Source: a bacterium
GTDB taxonomy: Bacteria > Patescibacteriota > Microgenomatia > UBA1406 > GWC2-37-13
NCBI GenBank assembly: GCA_021833625.1
Contig: JAKBEU010000001.1
Location: 186,001 to 250,000, forward strand
Direction: 5' to 3'
DNA length: 64,000 bases
Part shown: one piece after another, positions 9,904-21,136 of the stretch
Position numbering within the stretch: the first letter of the stretch is position 1
Layout: each line of letters begins with the position of its first letter
Notes under the pieces: generated by a model
The model's database searches: none
The model's input: only the letters and a program-made list of their open reading frames with translations
What the model was told of the DNA's origin: nothing
Translations under genes and position numbers: made by a program

Positions 9904-11696
9904 TTTTTTTTATTGAAGAGTTCCATGAATGCGGTTTTGGGAATCTCGACATGGCCGACAGCTTTCATCAATTTTTTTCCTTCTTTCTGTTTTTCAAGAA
10001 CCTTTCGTTTTCGTCCGAAATCTCCTCCACCAATAAGCTTTCCCTTATGCATCATGACATCCTTGCGGAAAGGAGAAATCCGTTCCGAGGAAATAATTTT
10101 TCCTTGAAACCTTGCCTGTATCTTTACTTCATACTGCTGGCGGGGAATAAGCTTATGCAATCTATGGGTCAGGAATTGGGCTTTTGACTGGGCACGTTCC
10201 GCAACGACAATTTCCGAGAATTCTTCAACCGGGTCGCCGTTAAGAAGAAGTTCCATTTTGTGTGCTTCGACTTTATCATGACGAATAAGTTCCCAATCAA
10301 GAGATGCATATCCACTCGTTACGCTCTTTAACCTATCAAAAAAGTCAGTAATAAGCTCTGAGAGGGGCATCTCATAGGTGAGCGCTATCTGATTCTTATT
10401 GTCCATCGTGATGAAGTGCGCGCGGTGTTCTTCGCACACTTTCATGACCGCACCGGTATAATCATTTGGCGTATAAATAAATACTTTTACAATTGGTTCA
10501 AGAAATTCCCCGTTTTTTTCAACGTATTCAACCTGCGGGGGAGTCAGGACAAGACTGAGTCCATATTCGCGTTCCAATCTTTCGCGTACGACGTCGGCAT
10601 GCAGTAGCCCCAAAAATCCGACACGAAACCCTGCGCCAAGTGCCGTACTATAAATACCGCTGAAGTCGAGAGCACTATCGGTCAGATACAATTTTTCCAA
10701 CGCTTTTTTCAAATTAAGATACTCGCTTGTCTCCGTCGGAAACATGCTCGCATACACCATCGGCTGTACTTTTTTATATCCGGCAAGGGGAGCGTCCATA
10801 TCTTTGGGCAACTGCATCGTATCACCGATTTGTATGGCATGAATGTCTTTTAAATTCGTTGCGACATATCCAATTTCTCCCGCTTTTATTTCGTCACACA
10901 CAGTAAGGTCGGGATGGAACATCCCAACCTCCGAGGCAATAAACGTGTTTCCTCCGTGAGCCATTTTAATTGACATGCCGGCAGAAAACGATCCGGAAAA
11001 AACGCGGACAAATGCAATTACTCCCTTATAGGTATCGTAATACGAATCAAAAATAAGTGCCTGTAATTTTTTTTCATTTTCCTGAAGTTTCGGGGGAGGA
11101 ATCTTTTCAATCACTGCCTGCAAAACCGCTTCGACTCCCTGACCCGTTTTTGCGGAAATGGAAAATATTTCGTCTTCGTTTACTCCGAGAAAATCGATAA
11201 GCTGTTTTTTTGTTTTGGGAACATCGGCGCCCGCCATGTCAATTTTATTGACGACAGGAATGATGACGAGATTTTTATCAAGTGCCTTATAGGCATTTGC
11301 AATGGTCTGCGCCTGCACTCCCTGCGTTGCGTCAACAAGCAAAATAACGCCCTCCACACAGGCAAGGGTTCTGTCCACTTCGTAGGAAAAATCCACGTGT
11401 CCCGGAGTATCAATAAGGTTCAAAATATACGTCGGCCCCGTGTTTGAACCTAAATTTGAAATTTGAAATTTAAAATTTGAAATCGTTTCGTTTTCTGCTG
11501 ACGTAGGAGAAACATAAGTCATCTTAACTGGCGCCAGCTTTATCGTAATCCCTCGTTCTCTTGAAACGGGATTCCGGTCCAGAAGTTGTTCTTCATGTTT
11601 TCCTGCCTTCACGACTCCCGTCAGCTCCAATAGACGGTCAGCAAGAGTACTCTTGCCGTGATCTACGTGAGCAATGATGGCAAAGTTACGAATCAT
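9900..11696 (-). CDS. lepA: Elongation factor 4 (LepA)
   Basis: Translational GTPase EF-4, 598 aa, which back-translocates or remodels stalled ribosomes. The P-loop region AHVDHGKST (9-17), RGITIKL (48-54), DTPGH (96-100) and the LepA C-terminal region are intact. Between switch I and DTPGH the protein carries extra residues, about 72-85 (ISNFKFQISNLGSN), encoded by a heptamer repeat array. Its start overlaps the pyk stop by 4 nt (ATGA), so lepA is probably translationally coupled to pyk. It converges with miaA. Confidence 0.95.
   Translation of the reverse strand: MIRNFAIIAHVDHGKSTLADRLLELTGVVKAGKHEEQLLDRNPVSRERGITIKLAPVKMTYVSPTSAENETISNFKFQISNLGSNTGPTYILNLIDTPGHVDFSYEVDRTLACVEGVILLVDATQGVQAQTIANAYKALDKNLVIIPVVNKIDMAGADVPKTKKQLIDFLGVNEDEIFSISAKTGQGVEAVLQAVIEKIPPPKLQENEKKLQALIFDSYYDTYKGVIAFVRVFSGSFSAGMSIKMAHGGNTFIASEVGMFHPDLTVCDEIKAGEIGYVATNLKDIHAIQIGDTMQLPKDMDAPLAGYKKVQPMVYASMFPTETSEYLNLKKALEKLYLTDSALDFSGIYSTALGAGFRVGFLGLLHADVVRERLEREYGLSLVLTPPQVEYVEKNGEFLEPIVKVFIYTPNDYTGAVMKVCEEHRAHFITMDNKNQIALTYEMPLSELITDFFDRLKSVTSGYASLDWELIRHDKVEAHKMELLLNGDPVEEFSEIVVAERAQSKAQFLTHRLHKLIPRQQYEVKIQARFQGKIISSERISPFRKDVMMHKGKLIGGGDFGRKRKVLEKQKEGKKLMKAVGHVEIPKTAFMELFNKKN
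11442..11483. repeat. Heptamer array read in frame inside lepA
   Basis: Six phased 7-bp units: GTTTGAA, CCTAAAT, TTGAAAT, TTGAAAT, TTAAAAT, TTGAAAT. TTGAAAT is also a unit of the intergenic array at 1704-1773 and, as TTTCAAA in another phase, of the S23 flank at 13715-13763. The 42 bp keep the lepA frame (14 codons). Confidence 0.8.
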
Positions 11697-13126
11697 ATCT
11701 GTATCAGTTTGAGTGTCGAAGTCCCCCCCTCAACAAGCCAGCAGTCGCCATGAAGGACAATAAACCATTCACCCGTTTTTGCTCCCTGTTCTTTTTTCAA
11801 AAATTCAACCGTTTTTGCAATTCCTTCTTTTGTCACTAATTCTTTTGCGGAGATGTCTTTTTTGACGATCGGTTCAACTCCATAATTGACGGTGAGCATC
11901 TGTGCGATTTTTGCGTTCGGGACAAATGCGAAAACGGGAAGGCTTGCACGGTAACGGGACAGCATTCGTGCCGTTTTTCCGGTTTGCGTAAAGACGACAA
12001 ATCCCGCAATTTTTTCACCTCTGCTTAAAAGCGTCTGATAAATATTGTATGCACCTTCACATAGCATACTTTCGTTGTTGGCGTCATTGAATTCAAATGT
12101 CCACCTGGTGTCTTCAATAAAACGAAGTTCGTTCGCTTCGACGATTTTTCTCATCATCGTTACGGTCTCGACAGGATATTTTCCTGATGCGGACTCTCCC
12201 GATAGCATCACTGCATCCGTCAGGTCGTACGTTGCATTCGCAACATCGGACACTTCGGCACGCGTTGGAAACGGATTGTCAATCATCGTTTGCAACATCT
12301 GTGTTGCAGTGATGACGGGAATCCCTCGCTCCATCGATTTCTTAATGATGACTTTCTGCCAATACGGAACTTCCTCAATGGGAAGTTCAATCCCGAGGTC
12401 TCCTCGTGCAACCATTATGCCGTCGCTTGCATCAATTATTTCGTCAAGATTATCTATTGCTGTTTTTGCTTCTATTTTCGAAATAATCTGGGCAACTATC
12501 TTATATTTCTTCATTTCTTCGCGCAACGTGTGAACATCCTTTGCGTTTCTCGCGTAGGAAAGAGCGATATAATCAAGTTCGCTTCTTTGTGCAAGTTTCA
12601 GTCCTTCAAAATCGCGGTCGACAAGAACGGGGAAGGGGAAGTTTGCGCCGGGGATACGAAGCGACTTTCTGTTTTTCAGAAGTCCCGCGCGATTACATTT
12701 CAATATCGCTTCTTTCCCGACTTCCATAACGGTGAAGGTAAATGCGCCGTCATCCGCAAGAAGGTGTTGTCCTACTTTCAGATATTCAAACAAGCTCGGA
12801 TGTGAGCAGGAAAATCCTTTTTTTGTTTTGTCGGTAAACACCGATTCGCCAAGGGTAACCATTTCTCCCACTTTGATATGAATTCCGTCTCCCGGCATAT
12901 TGATACGGATCTCAGGTCCCTGCAAATCAAGAAGGGTCCCGACGTGGACTCCCATTTTTTTTGCCACTTTATTCACTCTGTCAATGCGCTCCGCATGCCA
13001 CTCGACCGTGGAATGTTTGAAGTTAAATCGGAAGACATTCACTCCTGCTTCTATAAGCTTTTGAATCTGTTCTTCTGAGTCGGAAACCGGACCTATTGTT
13101 GCGACAATCTTTGTTAGTTTTTTCAT
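11693..13126 (-). CDS. pyk: Pyruvate kinase
   Basis: Pyruvate kinase, 477 aa, the last ATP-yielding step of glycolysis. The N-terminus MKKLTKIVATIGP is typical, the active-site region reads IISKIEAKTAIDNLDEI with MVARGDLGIELP after it, and the ATQML and SGESASGKYP motifs are intact. The C-terminal allosteric-type domain is present. The ATG at 13126 is chosen from the family; ATTATA at 13134-13139 (TATAAT on this strand) lies 7 nt upstream, so the mRNA is probably leaderless. It ends in TGA and overlaps lepA. Confidence 0.96.
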   Translation of the reverse strand: MKKLTKIVATIGPVSDSEEQIQKLIEAGVNVFRFNFKHSTVEWHAERIDRVNKVAKKMGVHVGTLLDLQGPEIRINMPGDGIHIKVGEMVTLGESVFTDKTKKGFSCSHPSLFEYLKVGQHLLADDGAFTFTVMEVGKEAILKCNRAGLLKNRKSLRIPGANFPFPVLVDRDFEGLKLAQRSELDYIALSYARNAKDVHTLREEMKKYKIVAQIISKIEAKTAIDNLDEIIDASDGIMVARGDLGIELPIEEVPYWQKVIIKKSMERGIPVITATQMLQTMIDNPFPTRAEVSDVANATYDLTDAVMLSGESASGKYPVETVTMMRKIVEANELRFIEDTRWTFEFNDANNESMLCEGAYNIYQTLLSRGEKIAGFVVFTQTGKTARMLSRYRASLPVFAFVPNAKIAQMLTVNYGVEPIVKKDISAKELVTKEGIAKTVEFLKKEQGAKTGEWFIVLHGDCWLVEGGTSTLKLIQI

Positions 13127-13177
13127 GGTGTTAATTATACAGGAAACCGGCCCCAATATGAGCCTCTTTGGCAGTCA

Positions 13178-13250
13178 ATTAATTTTTAATTTAAAGTTTT
13201 TAATTTTTATTCAAATCTCAATTTATAATTTAAAAATTGATTAAAAATTA
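13178..13250. repeat. AT-type heptamer array, 3' arm of S23 cassette 1
   Basis: About ten phased 7-bp units: ATTAATT, TTTAATT, TAAAGTT, TTTAATT, TTTATTC, AAATCTC, AATTTAT, AATTTAA, AAATTGA, TTAAAAA. It lies between the pyk promoter and the stop of the S23 gene and shares AAATTGA and TTAAAAA with the other arm. Confidence 0.7.
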
Positions 13251-13255
13251 AGAAG

Positions 13256-13609
13256 TCATTTTGTATTCGCAGCAATTGAAGAAAAAATGAGAGTCAATTC
13301 GTGCGCTTCTTTCCAAATAAGTCTACATTTTATCTTTATACTTTCCTCCTTAATTGTACTACCAAGCAGTCTCAGCCAATAGAGCGTTTCCTTTGCTTCT
13401 TTTTTACAAATATGAATTTTGTTCTTAAAGTCCTTTTTTGAAGCGGCTCCATTAGCCTCATAATAATTTGCTCCAATGCTTGTTCCACTTCTTACAAGCT
13501 GATCAATAATTGATTTGGTGACGACAGATATCTCAATTGTTTTTAAAAAACCAATTAGGCTTTCGCTAAACAAAGACACTCTTTCTTCAAGATTATATTG
13601 TTGATTCAT
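13256..13609 (-). CDS. S23/IVS four-helix-bundle protein 1
   Basis: Small protein of 117 aa in the 23S rRNA-intervening-sequence (S23, TIGR02436 / PF05635) four-helix-bundle family. Diagnostic: RSGTSIGANYYEANGAASKKDF, followed by KEAKETLYWLRLL. The family is known from insertions in rRNA genes, and related Avd proteins act in diversity-generating retroelements; its role here is unknown. The longer frame starts at TTG; the ATG at 13609 fits the family. It lies between pyk and prs and is flanked on both sides by AT-type heptamer arrays. Confidence 0.85.
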   Translation of the reverse strand: MNQQYNLEERVSLFSESLIGFLKTIEISVVTKSIIDQLVRSGTSIGANYYEANGAASKKDFKNKIHICKKEAKETLYWLRLLGSTIKEESIKIKCRLIWKEAHELTLIFSSIAANTK

Positions 13610-13714
13610 TGATATATTTTTATTCAATAAAATCACCAACTGTCAACTGTTTATAAACTACAAAAAAATCTTTTAGGCTGTTACAATGAAGGAAAAACAC
13701 TATTAGCAGTATAC

Positions 13715-13767
13715 GGATTAAGAATTAAAAATTGATTAAAAATTTCAAATTTCAAATTAAAAATTAC
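13715..13767. repeat. AT-type heptamer array, 5' arm of S23 cassette 1
   Basis: Seven phased units, GGATTAA, GAATTAA, AAATTGA, TTAAAAA, TTTCAAA, TTTCAAA and TTAAAAA, running straight into the prs stop codon (13764-13766). It is roughly the inverse of the array on the far side of the S23 gene. Confidence 0.75.
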
Positions 13768-14834
13768 TTCGCGTTATTCGGCAGCACCAGATCATGAATG
13801 GGTTTCCCCGTATGTACCGCAAGAATGGACCGTGCAAGAAGAGGAGCGACGCTTACTTCAACTACTTTGTCACTTGCCAGTATTTCCGGACGCAGTTTTA
13901 TCGTATTTGTCACAAATATTTTTCGTACCCCGGCGTTGAGTAATCTGTCAAGGCATGCTATTCCTTTTTTTTCCAAAAATAATCCGTGAGTGCATGCAAA
14001 AGATACGGAGTTCGCTCCTTTTTGATAGGCAAGCACTGCCGCGTTCTCCGCCGATTCGCCGCTTGCCAAGACATCGTCAATAATAAGGACATCACTCCCT
14101 TCAACACTTCCCAACAGATCATATGTCTCAACGGTTCCTCCCGGCATGCGCTCTTTAAACCCGACGGCAACTCCGCATGCCTCTAAAAATTGTTTGTATT
14201 TTTTTGCCCGTTTTGCTCCTCCGAAATCAGGAGACAACGTCACCAAATTCCCCATGGGAAGTTCTTTTTGTATCCGGGGAACAAGAACGCTGCTTGCATA
14301 CAAATTATCAAACGGGTAGGAAACAAATCCCGTCTCCTGGTCTGCATGCACATCAACCGTTTGCAACCGGTGCGCTCCTGCATTAAAAATCTGGTCGATG
14401 ACTACTTTCGAACTTATCGACTCGCGGGGAGCATCCTTGTTTTGCTGATCGGTCTGTCTGTCCTGACGCGAATACCCGAGCCACGGAGCAATTGCCGTTA
14501 TTTCATTTGCTGATGCCCGCGCAACAGCATCGATCATAAAACATAGCTCCATATGATAGGTGTTTGTACGGGGAGGGGAAGTCGGCTGAATAATAAACAC
14601 GTCGCGTTTCCGGACCGATACGGGAATTTGTGCAATCACTTCTTCACCGGGAAATTCCATTATCGATTGATAGGAAGGAATCCCTAAGAGTGCGGCGGTT
14701 TCCTCGGCAAGACCGGGATTGGAACGGCCCGTCAGAATGCGAAGTCTGTCTGAGTTATGCACGACTCTGATCCCCTTGTTAAGTGGGCTTTTCTCTGAAT
14801 GCACTCGTCCCCCGGTACCTTCAGCTTGTGACAT
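13764..14834 (-). CDS. prs: Ribose-phosphate pyrophosphokinase
   Basis: PRPP synthetase, 356 aa, which makes PRPP from ribose-5-phosphate and ATP for nucleotide synthesis. The flexible-loop and ATP region APWLGYSRQDRQ and the histidine-containing DVHADQETGF are clear; the PRPP-binding loop reads LIIDDVLASGES, a variant of the usual DDxxxTGGT. A hydrophilic N-terminal extension of about 25 aa precedes the first domain. The ATG at 14834 is chosen because AGTATA at 14842-14847 (TATACT on this strand) lies 7 nt upstream. Its stop abuts a heptamer array. Confidence 0.93.
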   Translation of the reverse strand: MSQAEGTGGRVHSEKSPLNKGIRVVHNSDRLRILTGRSNPGLAEETAALLGIPSYQSIMEFPGEEVIAQIPVSVRKRDVFIIQPTSPPRTNTYHMELCFMIDAVARASANEITAIAPWLGYSRQDRQTDQQNKDAPRESISSKVVIDQIFNAGAHRLQTVDVHADQETGFVSYPFDNLYASSVLVPRIQKELPMGNLVTLSPDFGGAKRAKKYKQFLEACGVAVGFKERMPGGTVETYDLLGSVEGSDVLIIDDVLASGESAENAAVLAYQKGANSVSFACTHGLFLEKKGIACLDRLLNAGVRKIFVTNTIKLRPEILASDKVVEVSVAPLLARSILAVHTGKPIHDLVLPNNAK

Positions 14835-14896
14835 ATACCGAAGTATAGTATCAGTTAATTTTCCCCACGTCAAATACGTTTTTTTTGAAACTTTCC

Positions 14897-14926
14897 TTGA
14901 CAGCACTATGCGTGGAGCCTTATAAT
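14897..14926 (+). promoter_or_regulatory. Promoter of the secreted-protein gene
   Basis: TTGACA (14897-14902), an 18-bp spacer and TATAAT (14921-14926), a near-consensus sigma-70 promoter. It predicts a leader of about 36 nt before the ATG at 14969. Confidence 0.8.
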
Positions 14927-14968
14927 GAATGCTAATTCAGAAAAAATTAAGAATCTGAAAATATATTT

Positions 14969-16483
14969 ATGTATACATTTCAACGAAAGGTATTTTCGGT
15001 AATAGTTTTATCTTTTTTCCTTTTTCTTCAGATACTGCCGTTTCTTCCGCCGACTGTCCGTACGCTTCCTTTAACAAAAAAACTAAGTCACTATTCTTTG
15101 TTTCATCCACAAGAGCTTGACGCTGCAGGACTTTCCTCAGCTTCAGCGACCCTTTCCAATCCACGACTTTCGTATGCTGCCGGAGTAAGTGCCACGATTA
15201 ACGCGGGCTTAACGGTCATCACCATTTCCGCCGCGGGAAATGCCGATAACGACACAAATCATTTGTTCCCGAACGACTATGTCGGCATAGGGAACAATCC
15301 CAATCTCCAGGTTGCCTCAGTTGCAAACGCAACAACATTCGTCCTAAAAACTGCATTAACGAACGGGATTACCAACGTGAATAAAGTGTATAGTACTCAG
15401 TCGGGCACTTTGTCCGTTAATTTCTATACTGCAAGTGCTATTCCCGTTGGGGGAAGCATCGAGATTGATATCCCATCAGCTGTCGGGACTGCCTCTACAA
15501 ACGATGGCACCCCGGACTATGCAGCGGTTGGCAGCAACGGGTTTGATCTTAATCTTATCGGAGCCGCGGACGTTACGTGTCCTGTCGGATTCACTGCCGC
15601 CACTCCGACAGTCGGAACAGGTGCAACCCCGCACAAAATATACTGTAATTTGAATGGTGCCTCTGCCTTAGCGGCCGGCGCAAATCTTACGACAACCATC
15701 GGTACTGCCACAAAAGGACTTGTGAATCCCGCCCCAAATCTGACGCATACGCAGGGAGTTGCCGACACATACCTCCTTCAAGCGTATACAAAAAGCGGAG
15801 CGGCAGGAGCCGGAACGGCGCTTGACAGCGTACCGATTAAGATAGCTCCCGTTGAAGGAGTTTTAGTCAGCGCATCCATTGACGAAACCCTTAACTTTAC
15901 GGTTGCCGCGGTCACCTCAGCCAATCTTCCGACAACCTGCGGTTTTACGCCTCTTGGAACTCTCGTCACAACAACCCCAATGAGCGTTCCTTTCGGATCA
16001 AGCATTGTTGCCAATACGTTTTATAACGGTGCCCAACAGCTGACCGTCACGACAAATGCACCGGGCGGCTACTCGGTAAAGATAGAAGCAAACGACCAGA
16101 TGGGAAAAGACGGTAAAGTATGTGCGGGTGCGACAGCGGATGAAACCGTCAACTGCATCAAAGACACGACCTGCAACGCCGGCGCTTGTACGTTTACGAC
16201 ATCAGCAGACTGGACAACCAATACCCTGAACGGACTTGGATACACCCTGAGCAACAATTCAGGAACCGATGCGTCGTTCACCTATAACGAATCGTCACGC
16301 ACCTTTTCAGCTAAACAATTGCCCGATCAGGAATCCGCTGAAGCAAAACAAAATATCATGTATGCAAGCACAGTACGCAATGCAAGTTCGGCATGTGTCG
16401 TCTATCGACTCAGTGTATCCCAGACACAACCAGCAGGATACTATTACAATAAAGTGAAGTACACGGCAAGCGCGATGTTCTAA
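14969..16483 (+). CDS. Secreted surface protein, unknown
   Basis: Exported protein of 504 aa. An N-terminal signal segment (residues about 5-30, SVIVLSFFLFLQILPFLPP) is followed by a long Thr/Ala/Ser/Gly-rich, probably all-beta region with four clustered cysteines near residues 387-411 (KVCAG, VNCIK, TCNAGACTF). No family is recognised. Size, low charge and composition resemble S-layer or pilin-like surface proteins of CPR bacteria. It has its own near-consensus promoter and no visible Shine-Dalgarno. Function is unknown. Confidence 0.75.
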   Translation: MYTFQRKVFSVIVLSFFLFLQILPFLPPTVRTLPLTKKLSHYSLFHPQELDAAGLSSASATLSNPRLSYAAGVSATINAGLTVITISAAGNADNDTNHLFPNDYVGIGNNPNLQVASVANATTFVLKTALTNGITNVNKVYSTQSGTLSVNFYTASAIPVGGSIEIDIPSAVGTASTNDGTPDYAAVGSNGFDLNLIGAADVTCPVGFTAATPTVGTGATPHKIYCNLNGASALAAGANLTTTIGTATKGLVNPAPNLTHTQGVADTYLLQAYTKSGAAGAGTALDSVPIKIAPVEGVLVSASIDETLNFTVAAVTSANLPTTCGFTPLGTLVTTTPMSVPFGSSIVANTFYNGAQQLTVTTNAPGGYSVKIEANDQMGKDGKVCAGATADETVNCIKDTTCNAGACTFTTSADWTTNTLNGLGYTLSNNSGTDASFTYNESSRTFSAKQLPDQESAEAKQNIMYASTVRNASSACVVYRLSVSQTQPAGYYYNKVKYTASAMF

Positions 16484-16521
16484 GATCTCTTTTATCTCTT
16501 CATGAAGGCCTATATTTGAAG

Positions 16522-16542
16522 AATGTGGTTTATAATCCCTTG
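16522..16542 (+). promoter_or_regulatory. Promoter-like 21-mer shared with the toxin gene
   Basis: A 21-bp segment ending GTTTATAATCCCTTG recurs with one mismatch at 29046-29066 upstream of the HigB-like gene. It holds a TATAAT (16531-16536) and is the probable promoter of S23 gene 2, giving a leader of about 60 nt that includes the 5' heptamer array. Confidence 0.6.
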
Positions 16543-16559
16543 TATCAACTCTCTGACTC

Positions 16560-16594
16560 CTTTAAACTCTAAATACTAAATCCTAAACTCTAAA
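16560..16594. repeat. NNCTAAA heptamer array, 5' arm of S23 cassette 2
   Basis: Five phased units, CTTTAAA, CTCTAAA, TACTAAA, TCCTAAA and CTCTAAA, ending 3 nt before the S23 ATG. They are the reverse complement of the TTTAGNN units after the gene. Confidence 0.85.
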
Positions 16595-16597
16595 CAA

Positions 16598-16978
16598 ATG
16601 GAGCAAAATTCTAAATTTCAAAAAAACAAATATGATCTTGAAGAACACGTTACAAAGTCTAGTGAAAATTTAATAACTTTCTGCAAAGTTCTCCCTCCAA
16701 TAACTGGAGCAAAACCGCTTATCGATCAAATTATAAGGAGTGGTACTAGTATTGGGGCAAATTTTATGGAAGCAAATGCATGTGAAAGCAGGAAAGATTT
16801 CATAAATAAAGTTTCCATTGCCCGAAAAGAAAGTAGGGAAACACTGTATTGGCTCCGTTTATTATCCGTTCAATTCCCGGAAAAGAAAACGGCCTTGAGG
16901 ATTTTATGGAAAGAAGTTCATGAACTGTCTCTCATCCTCGGCGGCATATTAAAATCCACAAAAAGCAAGATGCTTTAG
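16598..16978 (+). CDS. S23/IVS four-helix-bundle protein 2
   Basis: S23-family four-helix-bundle protein, 126 aa. IRSGTSIGANFMEANACESRK and KESRETLYWLRLL match the gene at 13256-13609 closely, so the two are near paralogues. Its TAG stop is part of the first TTTAGTG unit of a long 3' array, and the 5' array ends 3 nt before its ATG. Gene and arrays therefore form one compact unit of about 550 bp filling the space between a secreted-protein gene and wzt. Function is unknown; the family suggests RNA- or nucleoprotein-linked roles. Confidence 0.87.
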   Translation: MEQNSKFQKNKYDLEEHVTKSSENLITFCKVLPPITGAKPLIDQIIRSGTSIGANFMEANACESRKDFINKVSIARKESRETLYWLRLLSVQFPEKKTALRILWKEVHELSLILGGILKSTKSKML

Positions 16979-17107
16979 TGTTTAGCATTTAGGGTTTAGG
17001 ATTTAGAGTTTAGTGTTTAGGATTTGGTATTTTGATATTCTTTAGTTTTTAGGATTTAGCACTTTGAGTTTGTTTAGTATTTAGAGTTTAAGATTTAGGA
17101 TTTTATC
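16974..17107. repeat. TTTAGNN heptamer array, 3' arm of S23 cassette 2
   Basis: Eighteen 7-bp units of consensus TTTAGNN (TTTAGTG, TTTAGCA, TTTAGGG, TTTAGGA, TTTAGAG and so on) with two 4-bp interruptions (17037-17040, 17069-17072). It begins with the S23 stop codon and ends exactly at the wzt stop codon. The first five bases are constant and the last two vary. There are no unique spacers, so it is not a CRISPR array. Confidence 0.92.
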
Positions 17108-17875
17108 TTAGCCTTCCATCATTTTTTCGTACATATCGGCAGCTTCTTTTATGTCGCCGAAGTAGAGTTGCTTTCCATTTTGAAGTACAAGTCCTTTCGT
17201 ACAATATTTCCGTACCATGTCGGGACTATGACTCACCATAACCATGGTACTTCCACGCGTTTTAAATTCCGCCATGCGGTTTAAACATTTTTTCTGAAAC
17301 TTTTGATCGCCAACAGCCAATATCTCATCAACAAGAAGAATGTCAGGAGTCTCGGCAACTGCAACGGCAAATGCAAGACGCATATACATGCCGGACGAAT
17401 AAAATTTGATTGGCTGATCCATAAATTCTTCAAGCTCTGAAAACGTTACGATTGACGGATACAGTTTTTCCATCTCTTTGCGTTTTATTCCCAAAATCGA
17501 TCCGTTGAGATAGACGTTTTCCCGACCCGTCAACTCCGGGTGAAATCCTGCACCAAGCTCGATAAGAGGAGCGATCCGTCCTTCAACTGTAATACGTCCG
17601 TCTGAAGGCTTTGTGACCCCTGCAATGACCTTCAGAAGGGTAGATTTGCCGCTTCCATTCTTACCTAATATCCCCAAGGACTCTCCTTTTTCCAGTTCAA
17701 AATCAAGATGAGATAATGCGTCAAATTGGACTCTCGTTTCTTTCCGTCCAATGAGGGCAGGCAAGAATTCTTTAAACGTCTTTTGTTTCTGTAAGCTATA
17801 TCGTTTGCTTATATTCTCAGCTCTAATAGCTACTAGTCGATGGTCATTGGTAGTTGGTAGTTGGTTAGGCGTCAT
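17108..17875 (-). CDS. wzt: Polysaccharide ABC exporter ATPase (Wzt/TagH-like)
   Basis: ATPase of an ABC-2 glycan exporter, 255 aa. Walker A GILGKNGSGKSTLLK, signature YSSGMYMRLAFA, Walker B DILLVDEILAVGD and the switch His (VSHSPD) are intact. It lacks the C-terminal carbohydrate-binding domain of O-antigen Wzt, so it resembles TagH or short Wzt. Residues 3-17 (PNQLPTTNDHRLVA) are encoded by a heptamer array, so the native N-terminus seems replaced; no other start is visible. It pairs with the permease at 18305-19105 but is separated from it by an S23 gene. Confidence 0.92.
   Translation of the reverse strand: MTPNQLPTTNDHRLVAIRAENISKRYSLQKQKTFKEFLPALIGRKETRVQFDALSHLDFELEKGESLGILGKNGSGKSTLLKVIAGVTKPSDGRITVEGRIAPLIELGAGFHPELTGRENVYLNGSILGIKRKEMEKLYPSIVTFSELEEFMDQPIKFYSSGMYMRLAFAVAVAETPDILLVDEILAVGDQKFQKKCLNRMAEFKTRGSTMVMVSHSPDMVRKYCTKGLVLQNGKQLYFGDIKEAADMYEKMMEG
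17830..17864. repeat. TAGTTGG heptamer array, 3' arm of S23 cassette 3
   Basis: Five phased units, CTACTAG, TCGATGG, TCATTGG, TAGTTGG, TAGTTGG, abutting the S23 stop codon. On the minus strand they read CCAACTA-type and encode the first residues of Wzt. Confidence 0.85.
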
Positions 17876-18233
17876 AGTTTTTCTTTATTGATAAAACCAA
17901 AGAACTTATTTGTTTATTTAATACGACATATCTTTCTTCTAAAGACAAATACTCCTCTTCATTTACATACCCTAAATCTTTTGCCAATAATAAATGGTTT
18001 ATTGTTTCAGTCAACGAACCTTTTGCTATGTACAAAAACTGCGTAAACTCTTTTTTACTTCCTCTTGAGAATCCCTCTGCTATATTTGCCCCAACCGACG
18101 AAGATGACCTTCGCAGCTGGCTCACAATCCCATACATTTCTTCCTTCGGAAACATGCCTGATGTCTTATATATTTGGACAGTAAGCTCATGAGCTAACTG
18201 CCAAACTCTCAAATCCCTAAACTCTCTAATCAT
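17865..18233 (-). CDS. S23/IVS four-helix-bundle protein 3
   Basis: Four-helix-bundle protein of the S23 family, 122 aa. FRDLRVWQLAHELTVQIY is the family N-terminus, then RRSSSSVGANIAEGFSRGSKKE. It is more distant from the other two S23 proteins here and belongs to the common stand-alone branch. It sits between wzm and wzt, which normally adjoin, and overlaps the wzt start by 11 nt. Arrays of inverted CCAACTA/TAGTTGG heptamers bound it, so it looks inserted into the exporter operon. Function is unknown. Confidence 0.88.
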   Translation of the reverse strand: MIREFRDLRVWQLAHELTVQIYKTSGMFPKEEMYGIVSQLRRSSSSVGANIAEGFSRGSKKEFTQFLYIAKGSLTETINHLLLAKDLGYVNEEEYLSLEERYVVLNKQISSLVLSIKKNYDA

Positions 18234-18242
18234 TGTTTTCTT

Positions 18243-18307
18243 CCAACTACTAACTACCAGCTCCTTGCCTTACCAACGACCAACTACTATCCACCAACTA
18301 CTAACTA
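18243..18307. repeat. CCAACTA heptamer array, 5' arm of S23 cassette 3
   Basis: Nine 7-bp units (CCAACTA, CTAACTA, CCAGCTC, CTTGCCT, then after two bases CCAACGA, CCAACTA, CTATCCA, CCAACTA, CTAACTA). The last unit contains the wzm stop codon (18305-18307). Orientation is opposite to the arm at 17830-17864. Confidence 0.88.
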
Positions 18308-19105
18308 CACATAATCTGCAAACTGTCCTTCCAACTTCTTAAAGGTGATAAATCCTAATATAAAAATCAGTGTCGAAACGAGCGCTGCAATCGTGAGACT
18401 GTAAAAGTTTGGATTATTGTTGGAGAGAATAACTTGTCGATATGCATTCACAATAACTGCCATTGGGTTGAGAGACATCACAAACCGATATTGGGGAGGA
18501 ATTATTTCAATCGGATACATGATAGGTGTCATATACATCCACAATAGAATGATAAGATTCAACAAATATTGAATATCCCGATAAAACAGATTGAATGCCG
18601 CAACAAAAAGAGCGATGCCCCCGGTAAGAAGGAGTTGTATCACTAAAATAACGGGGATCCATAAATAATAAATGGTAAGCGGGATGCGAAAAATAATGAG
18701 GAATGCAATAAGGACCAGACACGAATACCCGAAATCAACCATCTTTGCAATGATGGTAGAGAATACTAATATTTCTCTCGGGAAATATATTTTCGTAATG
18801 AGATTGCTATTGCCCACCAATGACATTGACGAAGATCCAAGACTTTGAGTAAAAAAATTCCAAGGAAGAAGAGCAACCGAAAGAAAGATGATAAAAGGTA
18901 CTCCGAGGGAGGCAACATGTAATATCTTATCAAATACGAAGCTCATCACGATAAGCTGGAACAGGGGATTGAGGATAACCCATGCATACCCCAAAGCAGA
19001 CTGCTTGTATCGTTGCGTAATCTCACGATTTGCAAGATTCCACAGCAACTCACGATAGTCCCAAAAAAGACGGGAATTCGTGACCAACTTTTTGATCTTG
19101 CTCAT
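18305..19105 (-). CDS. wzm: Polysaccharide ABC exporter permease (Wzm-like)
   Basis: ABC-2 type permease, 266 aa, six predicted membrane helices; partner of the Wzt-like ATPase for exporting undecaprenyl-linked glycan. The N-terminal stretch LLWNLANREITQRYKQSALGYAWVILNPL is the family hallmark. ATTGTA at 19112-19117 (TACAAT on this strand) lies 6 nt before the ATG, so the mRNA is likely near-leaderless. Its last codon and stop run into the S23-3 heptamer array, which separates it from wzt. Confidence 0.93.
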   Translation of the reverse strand: MSKIKKLVTNSRLFWDYRELLWNLANREITQRYKQSALGYAWVILNPLFQLIVMSFVFDKILHVASLGVPFIIFLSVALLPWNFFTQSLGSSSMSLVGNSNLITKIYFPREILVFSTIIAKMVDFGYSCLVLIAFLIIFRIPLTIYYLWIPVILVIQLLLTGGIALFVAAFNLFYRDIQYLLNLIILLWMYMTPIMYPIEIIPPQYRFVMSLNPMAVIVNAYRQVILSNNNPNFYSLTIAALVSTLIFILGFITFKKLEGQFADYV

Positions 19106-19132
19106 TAGATTATTGTACCAAATATATCCGCA

Positions 19133-21136
19133 TCATTTTACCTCGAGTATTTTACCTCTATACTTCTCAAAAATACTGACCCAACTATATTTCTTAAGTT
19201 GGTTCTTTAATCCCTCAAAAGAATTCATATCTGTCCCCATACGTTTTTTTTGATTTTGTATTGCCGTTGCCCAATCCTCACTGCTTGCATTTTCGTTTTG
19301 TATAGTGAGAAGAGGGGAGGTAATAGCAATCCCTTCTGCTCCGACTTTTGTCGTGACAACTGGGCGTCCAAAGCTGAGACTCTCCAGTATCTTGATTCTT
19401 GTCCCCGAACCGGACCAAAGAGGGCAAATCAGCATATCTATCTTTTTATAAAATTCTTCCTTATCGTTGATATATCCCATATTAATAATCGAGGTCTTGT
19501 TTTTTATTGAAGAGTTCTGAATGAGAATATTAATTTCTGCTTTATCATTTTCTCCAGCCAAATAGTACCGATACGCAATTTTGTTTTTTTCAAGTACCGG
19601 CGCAATGCTACTTAAAAAAAAATTAAACGCCTTCTTATTCGGTGAATGCTCAAAAGAACCGATATATCCAAGATTAATACATTCATCGTTTTTATCGAGA
19701 GGAAGAAAACTAATTTTTTCTATTCCGTTTGGAAGGACTTCCACCTTTTTTACGTTAAATTTTTCCACCAATATTTTTTTATCCTCTTCAGATACGGCTA
19801 TAACCAAGTCAAAATAGCGAAGATTGTCCTTTTCATATAAGAATATTTCCCACCAGCGCAAATATTTGACAACAAATTTTAGAGGATTTTTCTCCTCAAG
19901 CAATCGTCTCCAAAACGAAACAGTAGAAATATCATACGCGACGAACACCTTTTTTACTCCTCTCGGCAAATATTTTCCTAGATACAAAAGCTGCGTTGTT
20001 TCAACCTGAACGATTTTAACATTGACGACCTGTTTGCATTTGTCTATTAATGTTTCGTTCCAAAAATCAGAAAGCCAATAGGGAATGCCATGTTTCAAAA
20101 AAGAAAACACATTCCGATTGCTCGTCAAAAAAAACTCATAAGCAGTTCCGCTCTCCTTAAACCAATTTTCATTTTTCGAAACGTCGTCGTTTTTATTAAT
20201 AAATCCAAAAAAAGAAAGTGGACGATATTTCCCAAGCTCTTTCACGGTATTAAGCAAGCGAACCTGTCCTCCGCTTTTTGTAGGAAAGGGGAGAAAGGGA
20301 GAGACGACAAGAGTATCGTTTAATTGATGCCCATTATGACCGCTAAAAGTTGGCGGGAAAGATGCTTTTAAAAAAACTTTCCTTATTTTGTTCCGTATCC
20401 TATCAACCAACCGTATTCTATAGCGGTAATTCTTGTCTAGATACTTGTTCTTATATATCTCAAGTGTCTTTCCAGAAAAATTTTCTTCAAGAACTTCTTT
20501 CCTTTCTTTTGCAACTTCAGCCTCGTTCTTGCTACTATACCCACTAAAATCATAAACAGATAGGACGGATTTAATGTGCCTCGTACTACATTTCTTTATT
20601 AGTAAAGCCTTAAGAAAAAATTCCCAGTCTGAGGCGATTCTATAATTTTCGCTGTAGTTTCCGATTGTGGAAAACAGTTTTGTTTTGATAAAAGTAGCCT
20701 GGTGACAAAGACTGTCGTTAAGCAAAAAATATTCATCAATTGAATCCGGATATTGAATCACATAAAAATCCTCTTGATCGCTAATAAATTTTGCATCACA
20801 ATACACAATATCTTCTTTGACATCTGGAGAGAGAGTTTTTCCGAGCGCCGAAGAATTGATGAGATAATCGCCTGAGTTCAGAAAAAGGCAATATTCTCCA
20901 CGAGTTTGTTTTATACCCTTATTCATTCCTTGATAGATGCCTTTATCTTTTTCAGATATGAAATATGTTATCTTTCCACGATATTTTTCAATTACCTCTA
21001 AAGACCCATCGGTGCTCCCTCCATCTATCACAATGTATTCGTAGTCAAGAAAGTTTTGAGCGATGACGCTTTGGATGGTTTTTTCCAATCCAACTCTATT
21101 ATTGAGGTTAACCGTTATGATCGATAGCCTTGACAC
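19133..21136 (-). CDS. GT2-GT4 fused glycosyltransferase
   Basis: Two glycosyltransferases in one chain, about 667 aa. The N-terminal GT2 (GT-A fold) domain, about 1-250, starts SIITVNLNNRVGLEKTIQSV and has the donor-site IDGGSTDGS and LNSGD. The second half is a GT4-type GT-B enzyme: N-terminal VVSPFLPFPTKSGGQVRLL and C-terminal IDMLICPLWSGSGTRIKILE. I prefer the GTG start at 21136, 4 nt after the fcl stop; the frame also opens at 21172 inside fcl. It probably adds two successive sugars to the glycan built with fcl. Confidence 0.88.
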   Translation of the reverse strand: MSRLSIITVNLNNRVGLEKTIQSVIAQNFLDYEYIVIDGGSTDGSLEVIEKYRGKITYFISEKDKGIYQGMNKGIKQTRGEYCLFLNSGDYLINSSALGKTLSPDVKEDIVYCDAKFISDQEDFYVIQYPDSIDEYFLLNDSLCHQATFIKTKLFSTIGNYSENYRIASDWEFFLKALLIKKCSTRHIKSVLSVYDFSGYSSKNEAEVAKERKEVLEENFSGKTLEIYKNKYLDKNYRYRIRLVDRIRNKIRKVFLKASFPPTFSGHNGHQLNDTLVVSPFLPFPTKSGGQVRLLNTVKELGKYRPLSFFGFINKNDDVSKNENWFKESGTAYEFFLTSNRNVFSFLKHGIPYWLSDFWNETLIDKCKQVVNVKIVQVETTQLLYLGKYLPRGVKKVFVAYDISTVSFWRRLLEEKNPLKFVVKYLRWWEIFLYEKDNLRYFDLVIAVSEEDKKILVEKFNVKKVEVLPNGIEKISFLPLDKNDECINLGYIGSFEHSPNKKAFNFFLSSIAPVLEKNKIAYRYYLAGENDKAEINILIQNSSIKNKTSIINMGYINDKEEFYKKIDMLICPLWSGSGTRIKILESLSFGRPVVTTKVGAEGIAITSPLLTIQNENASSEDWATAIQNQKKRMGTDMNSFEGLKNQLKKYSWVSIFEKYRGKILEVK

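Follow-up and report, generated by a model that had tools for sequence, protein, structure and literature searches.

A probable family of bacterial mobile elements built from an S23 gene and two inverted arrays of short repeats

The window analysed here, a stretch of 64,000 nucleotides (G000:C2:186001-250000) from a complete 1.10-Mb genome (1,095,652 bases) of the Candidate Phyla Radiation (CPR) type, contains three genes for S23 proteins, each lying between two inverted arrays of short repeats. It had been proposed in an earlier note on this DNA that these units might be mobile cassettes resembling the intervening sequences (IVS) of 23S rRNA genes and inserting between protein genes; in line with that proposal, an excess of arms around S23 genes and empty sites in relatives were both found. 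We consider it likely that the window units are copies of a mobile element consisting of one S23 gene and two inverted short-unit arrays as its ends, with S23 as the putative arm-recognition protein. At the level of sequence, comparisons established inverted arms, empty sites, the presence of different lineages at one site, miniature copies, and a tracking of the arms with the protein. These data suggest that units of this make-up, a gene together with repeats matched to its protein, are a widespread and overlooked form of jumping DNA. The three cassettes comprise the following features (window positions; 5′ and 3′ are given in the sense of the S23 gene):

13178..13250, plus strand: 3′ arm of cassette 1, an inverted AT-rich array (best segment 13187-13229).
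13256..13609, minus strand: S23 gene 1, PF05635, class II subfamily, 117 aa (E 9.4e-14).
13715..13767, minus strand: 5′ arm of cassette 1, AT-rich heptamers of about AATTTGA/AATTTTT (best inverted segment 13717-13759; array at 13730 in the genome scan).
16560..16597, plus strand: 5′ arm of cassette 2, a (CTAAANN) array (shuffles, genome array scan).
16598..16978, plus strand: S23 gene 2, PF05635, class II subfamily, 126 aa (profile match; homologue L029).
16979..17107, minus strand: 3′ arm of cassette 2, a (TTTAGNN) array, inverted relative to the 5′ arm (shuffles, genome array scan).
17830..17864, plus strand: 3′ arm of cassette 3, the inverse of TAGTTGG (CCAACTA), encoding the extra Wzt N-terminus MTPNQLPTTNDH...
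17865..18233, minus strand: S23 gene 3, PF05635, class I, 122 aa (E 1.4e-39; predicted four-helix bundle).
18243..18307, minus strand: 5′ arm of cassette 3, a (TAGTTGG) array that starts at the wzm stop codon (shuffles, genome array scan).

All three genes scored above the PF05635 cut-off (52, 56.3, and 135 bits, respectively), and they were the only PF05635 matches in the genome at E≤0.001, all lying within 5 kb. The arm unit was confirmed to differ from cassette to cassette, being AT-rich at gene 1, CTAAANN/NNTTTAG at gene 2, and TAGTTGG/CCAACTA at gene 3. The significance of the arms was assessed with dinucleotide shuffles (1000 per test), and the inverted-arm match was equalled by 2, 0, and 1 of the 1000 shuffles for genes 1, 2, and 3, respectively. 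The period-7 score of the upstream and downstream flanks was reached by 7 and 34 of 1000 shuffles at gene 1 (the weakest case), by 0 and 2 at gene 2, and by 0 and 0 at gene 3; when periods 5 to 10 were compared, every other period scored below period 7 in each of the six flanks. Moreover, the complete genome contained ten period-7 arrays over threshold, four of which were cassette arms within a 5.1-kb stretch (binomial P 9.9e-8), so that chance does not account for the clustering; arrays with periods of 5, 6, 8, 9, 10, 11, or 13 numbered 0, 4, 1, 3, 0, 1, or 1, respectively. The three cassettes were placed between protein-coding genes, outside rRNA genes. Contact of the arms with a start or stop codon, which had been claimed for every case, was not universal: the stop codon of gene 2 already lies within a TTTAGNN unit of its 3′ arm, and the 5′ arm of cassette 1 lies about 105 bp from the ATG of gene 1.

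PF05635 genes were found in 28 of 37 relatives (G000 to G036, G000 being the window genome; 27 above the cut-off). A sample of 192 genomes of the phylum contained 111 with matches, of which 101 exceeded the cut-off, and as many as 13 copies occurred per genome. A few of the weak matches were probably avd genes of diversity-generating retroelements (DGR), the sole match of G013 being one of these. Outside the phylum, at least 554 confirmed stretches were obtained from many phyla, and the same architecture was present among loci of Bacteroidetes, Firmicutes, Planctomycetes, Acidobacteria, Nitrospirae, Spirochaetes, Gammaproteobacteria, and Cyanobacteria. For each S23 gene, the upstream arm was compared with the reverse complement of its own downstream arm, the cut-off being the 95th percentile of mismatched pairs (5% expected); genes with short flanks, duplicates in protein sequence, and proteins shorter than 85 aa were dropped from the enlarged set and from the duplication search described below. 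The samples include close relatives (e.g., a Prevotella clade), and cassettes and pairs are thus not independent. In the first set, matching inverted arms were found at 110 of 147 S23 genes and at 10 of 214 control open reading frames (ORFs), and the direct orientation gave 16/147; in the enlarged set, the counts were 196/255 inverted and 32/255 direct. Scores of at least 11 were reached by 77 of 110 S23 genes in 17 multi-copy genomes and, among Gammaproteobacteria, by 19 of the 26 loci with usable flanks (30 loci in all). The excess of arms anticipated around S23 genes elsewhere was thus borne out. The period itself was less uniform: in 129 armed cassettes the best period was 7 in 83, 8 in 30, 9 in 10, 10 in 4, and 6 in 2, so that a 7-bp period throughout describes the six window flanks and not the family. 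In one locus (L257), the S23 frame continues into its own 3′ array, which yields a C-terminal QQNNKTTKQQNN tail. Carriage by phages was not borne out: a single class I query had no match at E≤1e-5 among 50,697 phage records, and in viral contigs of IMG/VR each of two scans found 11 loci, on partly shared contigs.

Arm sequence was then related to S23 sequence in 220 armed cassettes, using pairs without shared flank genes and counting an arm score of at least 12 as a match (pairs not independent). When the S23 proteins were at least 70% identical, 8 of 13 pairs had arms that matched in the same sense, and none of the 13 had arms that matched in the flipped sense; at 60-70% identity, the same-sense match was found in 20 of 202 pairs and the flipped match in none. 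At 50-60% identity, 57 same-sense and 7 flipped matches were counted among 2046 pairs, and at 40-50% identity, 101 and 13 among 6873. An earlier set of 136 cassettes, with shared-site pairs included, pointed the same way (Mantel rho 0.24, a value reached by 0 of 300 permutations). The units were also biased in strand: read in the S23 sense in 129 cassettes, TAG was repeated in 62 versus 11 for CTA, and AGT in 55 versus 10 for ACT. The subfamily that includes genes 1 and 2 of the window used other units, e.g., CTAAANN and ATCAAAT. As an example, the S23 protein of L029, from a genome of the same genus, is 74% identical to gene 2 and is likewise accompanied by the CTAAANN unit, at an unrelated site without similar flanking ORFs at E<0.01. 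Both the sequence and the strand of the arms go with the S23 protein, unrelated sites included. The suggestion that the arms are the binding site of S23 agrees with this behaviour; binding itself would be the simplest reading of it. Separately, the S23 proteins of a cyanobacterial plasmid (L372) and a gammaproteobacterium (L428) are 68% identical, and by eye both have arrays of the TCAGAAT/TCAGGAG type; a transfer of the whole cassette between phyla is possible.

Empty sites were sought for cassettes 1 and 3 and elsewhere. Cassette 3 lies between the two genes of an ABC-2 transporter:

17108..17875, minus strand: wzt, ABC-2 ATPase, the downstream neighbour of cassette 3 (junction empty in G009 and G022).
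18305..19105, minus strand: wzm, ABC-2 permease, the upstream neighbour of cassette 3 (wzm/wzt comparison).

The junction is empty in G009 (Wzt 76% identical) and in G022 (73%), the wzm stop codon overlapping or adjoining the wzt start. The site is filled in G000, where the 3′ arm gives Wzt its new N-terminus, and in G007 (Wzt 77%, Wzm 76%), where the cassette carries another unit. A second site was examined in Prevotella, of which 60 genomes were searched and 50 carried sdhB; in the best 30 of these 50, counted by eye, 16 sdhA/sdhB junctions were empty (2-46 bp), 10 held an S23 cassette, 1 held another insert, and 3 were unresolved. No fewer than five distinct units were represented at the ten filled sites, and the S23 proteins there fell in separate parts of the tree (FastTree, leaf order by eye), which indicates that one position took in different cassettes. 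In cyanobacterial plasmids, a site filled in Trichormus was empty in Microchaete and Nostoc linckia, the aligned pieces being 97.9% and 97.7% identical, respectively, and GTAAT was present at each of the two junctions; a Scytonema plasmid carried the Trichormus-type insertion with a 5′ array two units shorter. A second Nostoc plasmid pair (91-92% identity) had TTCTA at both junctions. Cassettes were also found within cas operons (L385 and L388): Picosynechococcus PCC 7003, unlike PCC 7002, has one between cas10/cmr2 and cmr3, and Anabaena sp. 90 has one in the cas6/cas4 interval. The empty sites seen carried no array, and insertion into pre-existing arrays was rejected on this ground. With the miniature copy described below, these sites supply the empty alleles that the earlier note had called for in close relatives. 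That the arms are the ends of the element also agrees with one plasmid site, at which only a few bases separate the end of the array from the point where the empty-site sequence resumes.

Miniature copies lacking S23 were found as well. Outside the window, two small elements carry the unit of cassette 2, with CTAAA units in one arm and TTTAG units in the other arm. The first occupies the dnaX/ybaB spacer (genes named from their sequence) at C2 ~171323-171410, and the second is at C2 ~494550-494660. Apart from its two arms, each contains very little. The inner border [AT]CAAATnnnnCAAAATT is common to cassette 2 and both miniatures, and its three occurrences in the genome, both strands searched, are exactly there. 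Both same-genus genomes are without the dnaX/ybaB copy. S23-less elements with inverted arrays also occupied plasmid sites homologous to filled ones, in Brasilonema (L383) and in Nostoc ATCC 53789 (L398, whose arms, scoring 9.5, were judged mainly by eye). In the dnaX/ybaB spacer of G009, G012, and G030 (L490, L494, and L511), other miniature inverted-array elements with different units seemed, by eye, to be present; the spacer is a possible hot spot.

The fold was predicted for gene 3 only. Its AlphaFold2 model is a four-helix bundle (mean pLDDT 97.6), nearest to 2gsc (Z 21.1; root-mean-square deviation [rmsd] 1.0 over 115 residues) and next to 2rld (Z 17.6, rmsd 1.5, 106 residues), both of which have five chains as deposited. 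After its own family, the model was nearest to Avd proteins (8ub7, a DGR complex, Z 15.5, rmsd 1.6, 108 residues; 4dwl, Z 15.4, rmsd 1.6, 109 residues), within a comparison that covered a list of PDB entries and so does not exclude other families. Five residues were conserved in 87 S23 proteins: Q39 in 85, R42 in 81, N50 in 84, E53 in 86, and E76 in 87. None of these was present in the four Avd-type homologues (L030, L450, L452, and L453), which matched PF05635 weakly, lay less than 1 kb from an RVT_1 match each, and are probably DGR avd genes; these four also had no arms (score 6-8). At a fifth Avd-type locus (L451), outside the four tested, the gene was not recovered by the profile used.

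On these grounds, we propose that the element would insert between genes, frequently within an operon, where it would sit right after a stop codon and read the same way as the operon. S23, whose solved relative 2gsc forms five four-helix bundles, would bind several units of its own arms and draw the two ends together; co-dispersal and strand bias point to such recognition. A five-fold assembly that binds several units at once would explain why arrays are kept over single sites and why spacings of 7-9 nt are tolerated. The unit presumably drifts along with the S23 protein, so that each lineage would have its own unit with both arms still matching, and the gene-less miniatures would move in trans. 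Cutting and joining may come from S23 itself, through Q39, R42, N50, E53, and E76, or from a host enzyme. A bolder version, which we put forward tentatively and regard as rather unlikely in its entirety, would make S23 a new transposase or strand-transfer protein, with a five-bundle ring wrapping the end units, the five conserved residues as catalytic ones, the heptamer arrays of Xanthomonas, Nostoc, and others as miniatures, the IVS as copies in rRNA genes, and Avd as a domesticated relative. If S23 were itself the transposase, few autonomous bacterial transposons would be smaller than this element, at about 0.5 kb.

Several known systems resemble these cassettes in part. To our knowledge, no class of mobile element has protein-matched tandem-repeat ends together with a four-helix-bundle protein, and in keeping with the view that the form was undescribed, no published description of S23 cassettes with heptamer arms was found in the open-access literature (preprints being outside the scope). 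REP (repetitive extragenic palindromic) sequences and their REP-associated tyrosine transposases (RAYT), the REPIN system, comprise genes scattered as a family, their cognate short inverted repeats, and numerous copies that lack the gene and are mobilised in trans; RAYT is a Y1 (HUH) transposase. The cassettes differ in that they code only for S23, a four-helix bundle matching no family other than PF05635, have tandem heptamers as ends, and reside, in the window, in a genome without a Y1_Tnp match. Avd is a pentamer, and it shares the fold of the gene 3 model; the differences are those of the four Avd-type homologues, which lacked arms and the five conserved residues and had a reverse transcriptase nearby, and the absence of an RVT_1 match from the window genome further separates the cassettes from DGRs.

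The closest likeness is to the IVS. A report on the Coxiella burnetii 23S IVS describes an S23p ORF between terminal inverted repeats, excision by RNase III at the stem, two or three GACAGAT heptamers (depending on the strain) directly upstream of the S23p start, and a suggestion of mobility (PMC4990558), and a CPR survey places the IVP domain in rRNA insertions. Thus both kinds of unit have a PF05635-type ORF within terminal inverted repeats, with heptamers upstream in Coxiella. By contrast, the IVS lies in rRNA genes and is defined by RNase III excision of its stem, whereas the cassettes lie between protein genes and have two tandem-array arms, S23-less miniatures, and arms that go with the protein. 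Because of the Coxiella heptamers and inverted repeats and the IVP domain in CPR rRNA insertions, the 23S rRNA IVS with an S23 ORF is probably a special case of the element that landed in rRNA genes. We class the element as its own kind; a reader who counts the IVS as the kind would call it a form of IVS.

Heptamer arrays without an assigned gene have been reported as well. The GGGAATC arrays of Xanthomonas and the GGGGATT/C arrays of Nostoc lie close behind stop codons (sense) or before ORFs (antisense), and those of Xanthomonas are often in inverted pairs, according to the main text of PMC4692102, in which the term "S23" does not occur. The placement relative to stop and start codons resembles that of the cassettes, and relatives of Xcc0516 in our gammaproteobacterial sample had GGGAATA (L403) and GTGAGGG (L401) arms; the Xanthomonas and Nostoc heptamers may be gene-less copies of the S23 element. 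The TAACTGA repeats of Beggiatoaceae, likened here by description, are intergenic heptamers of unknown origin for which a mobile repeat-binding protein was raised; they differ in being direct repeats, and "S23" is absent from the main text of that paper (PMC4679880).

If the proposed mobility holds, very many genes annotated as four helix bundle proteins would belong to mobile elements with self-tuned ends, several unexplained families of heptamer repeats would gain a candidate source, ideas on the origin of the IVS could be tested, and DNA mobility would be seen to hinge on a protein that has no known catalytic fold. Moreover, the coupled proteins and units would form a natural set of protein/repeat pairs in which the evolution of binding specificity could be studied.

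Several observations weigh against the proposed element. No recognised catalytic domain was found in S23, and the cassettes encode only the S23 four-helix bundle; since neither RVT_1 nor Y1_Tnp had a match in the window genome, an enzyme acting in trans is left without a name. Among the relatives, Y1 transposases were present in 23 of 28 PF05635-bearing genomes versus 3 of 9 PF05635-free ones (Fisher p 0.011), and another transposon could thus be the motor. In a search for target-site duplications at the arm boundaries of 188 cassettes, shared words of at least 5 were found in 36 (0.191), versus a cross-pair mean of 0.172 and a maximum of 0.241, which is not significant; the 5-bp junction repeat was seen at the two plasmid sites only, and no clean junction repeat was found in the other filled/empty pairs (wzm/wzt, nrd, Calothrix integrase, cmr, TraM, and Aulosira). 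About a quarter of the S23 genes (59/255) had no significant inverted arms, and period-7 arrays also occurred around 16 of 214 control ORFs. As a separate observation, Y1 transposase-like proteins are common in the set G000-G036, many of them in open frames of about 215-245 aa.

The alternative that survives best, though we consider it improbable, is an RNA-level element, in which the arms would pair in a polycistronic transcript, the stem would be cut by RNase III or an enzyme of that kind, S23 would act on or be protected by the hairpin, and mobility would be incidental. The stem excision and the position of the heptamers just before the S23 ORF in Coxiella, as described above, speak for it, and so does the orientation of the cassettes: in 175 of 244 cases the two neighbours share the strand of S23, in 10 both are on the other strand, and in 59 they are mixed; this co-orientation is equally compatible with insertion behind stop codons or with selection for expression. 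Against it, mirrored unit order was found in only 10 of 125 cassettes at p≤0.05 versus unit-order shuffles, although the best segment had been chosen, and mirrored arms as a selected RNA stem were rejected on this count. Furthermore, the variable unit positions (e.g., in CTAAANN) are often mismatched between the arms, as judged by eye, pairing alone does not account for the subfamily-specific strand bias, and no Rfam family matched in window 12000-20000. The notion of RNA-folding cassettes, raised earlier beside that of mobile ones, is not favoured by the structure of the arms and counts as improbable.

Slightly less probable still is an explanation in which the arms are generic microsatellites that tolerate or attract S23 (a hot spot), or non-autonomous repeats of another transposase (Y1/RAYT) with S23 as a passenger. 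Arrays without S23 do exist, with 16 in 100 kb of G018 and six outside the cassettes in the window genome, and both the published Xanthomonas and Nostoc arrays and the excess of Y1 in PF05635-bearing relatives are in its favour. Insertion into an existing array would, however, yield direct and not inverted arms, and the array-free empty sites and the tracking of the arms with S23 at unrelated sites likewise argue against it. Five genomes (G000, G002, G004, G023, and G024) have S23 and no Y1 match, and both CTAAA/TTTAG arrays outside the cassettes of the window genome are the miniature derivatives described above. In loci not picked for S23, S23-free genomes yielded no array (8 loci, 28.5 kb), genomes with 1-3 S23 genes yielded 6 (19 loci, 73.4 kb), and those with at least 4 yielded 5 (9 loci, 33.3 kb), numbers too few for a claim (one S23-bearing locus, L149, was left out). 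A larger comparison gave 1 array in 200 kb for G006 and G016 together and 16 and 3 per 100 kb for G018 and G008, respectively, and is biased, the G018 and G008 contigs being S23-bearing.

A retro-element, in which S23 would work like a DGR Avd and the cassette would move through RNA with a reverse transcriptase supplied in trans, is very improbable: the nearness of the fold to Avd and the mostly sense orientation in the operon transcript favour it, but RVT_1 is missing from 20 of 28 PF05635-bearing relatives, the window genome included (20 of 27 without G013), and its counts are uncorrelated with those of PF05635 (rho -0.01), by which dependence on a reverse transcriptase was rejected, and the Avd-type homologues tested in relatives are armless.

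Two further features lie beside cassette 1. Its neighbour, a divergent ribose-phosphate pyrophosphokinase-like gene (prs, window 13764-14906), is 32-37% identical to the relatives' copies and to the other copy in its own genome (C2:171716), too divergent from the relatives' prs for a comparison of sites. About 1.7 kb from cassette 1, an in-frame array of AAATTTG heptamers lies inside lepA (window 11444-11490), where it codes for NFKFQISNL-like residues in the GTPase domain.

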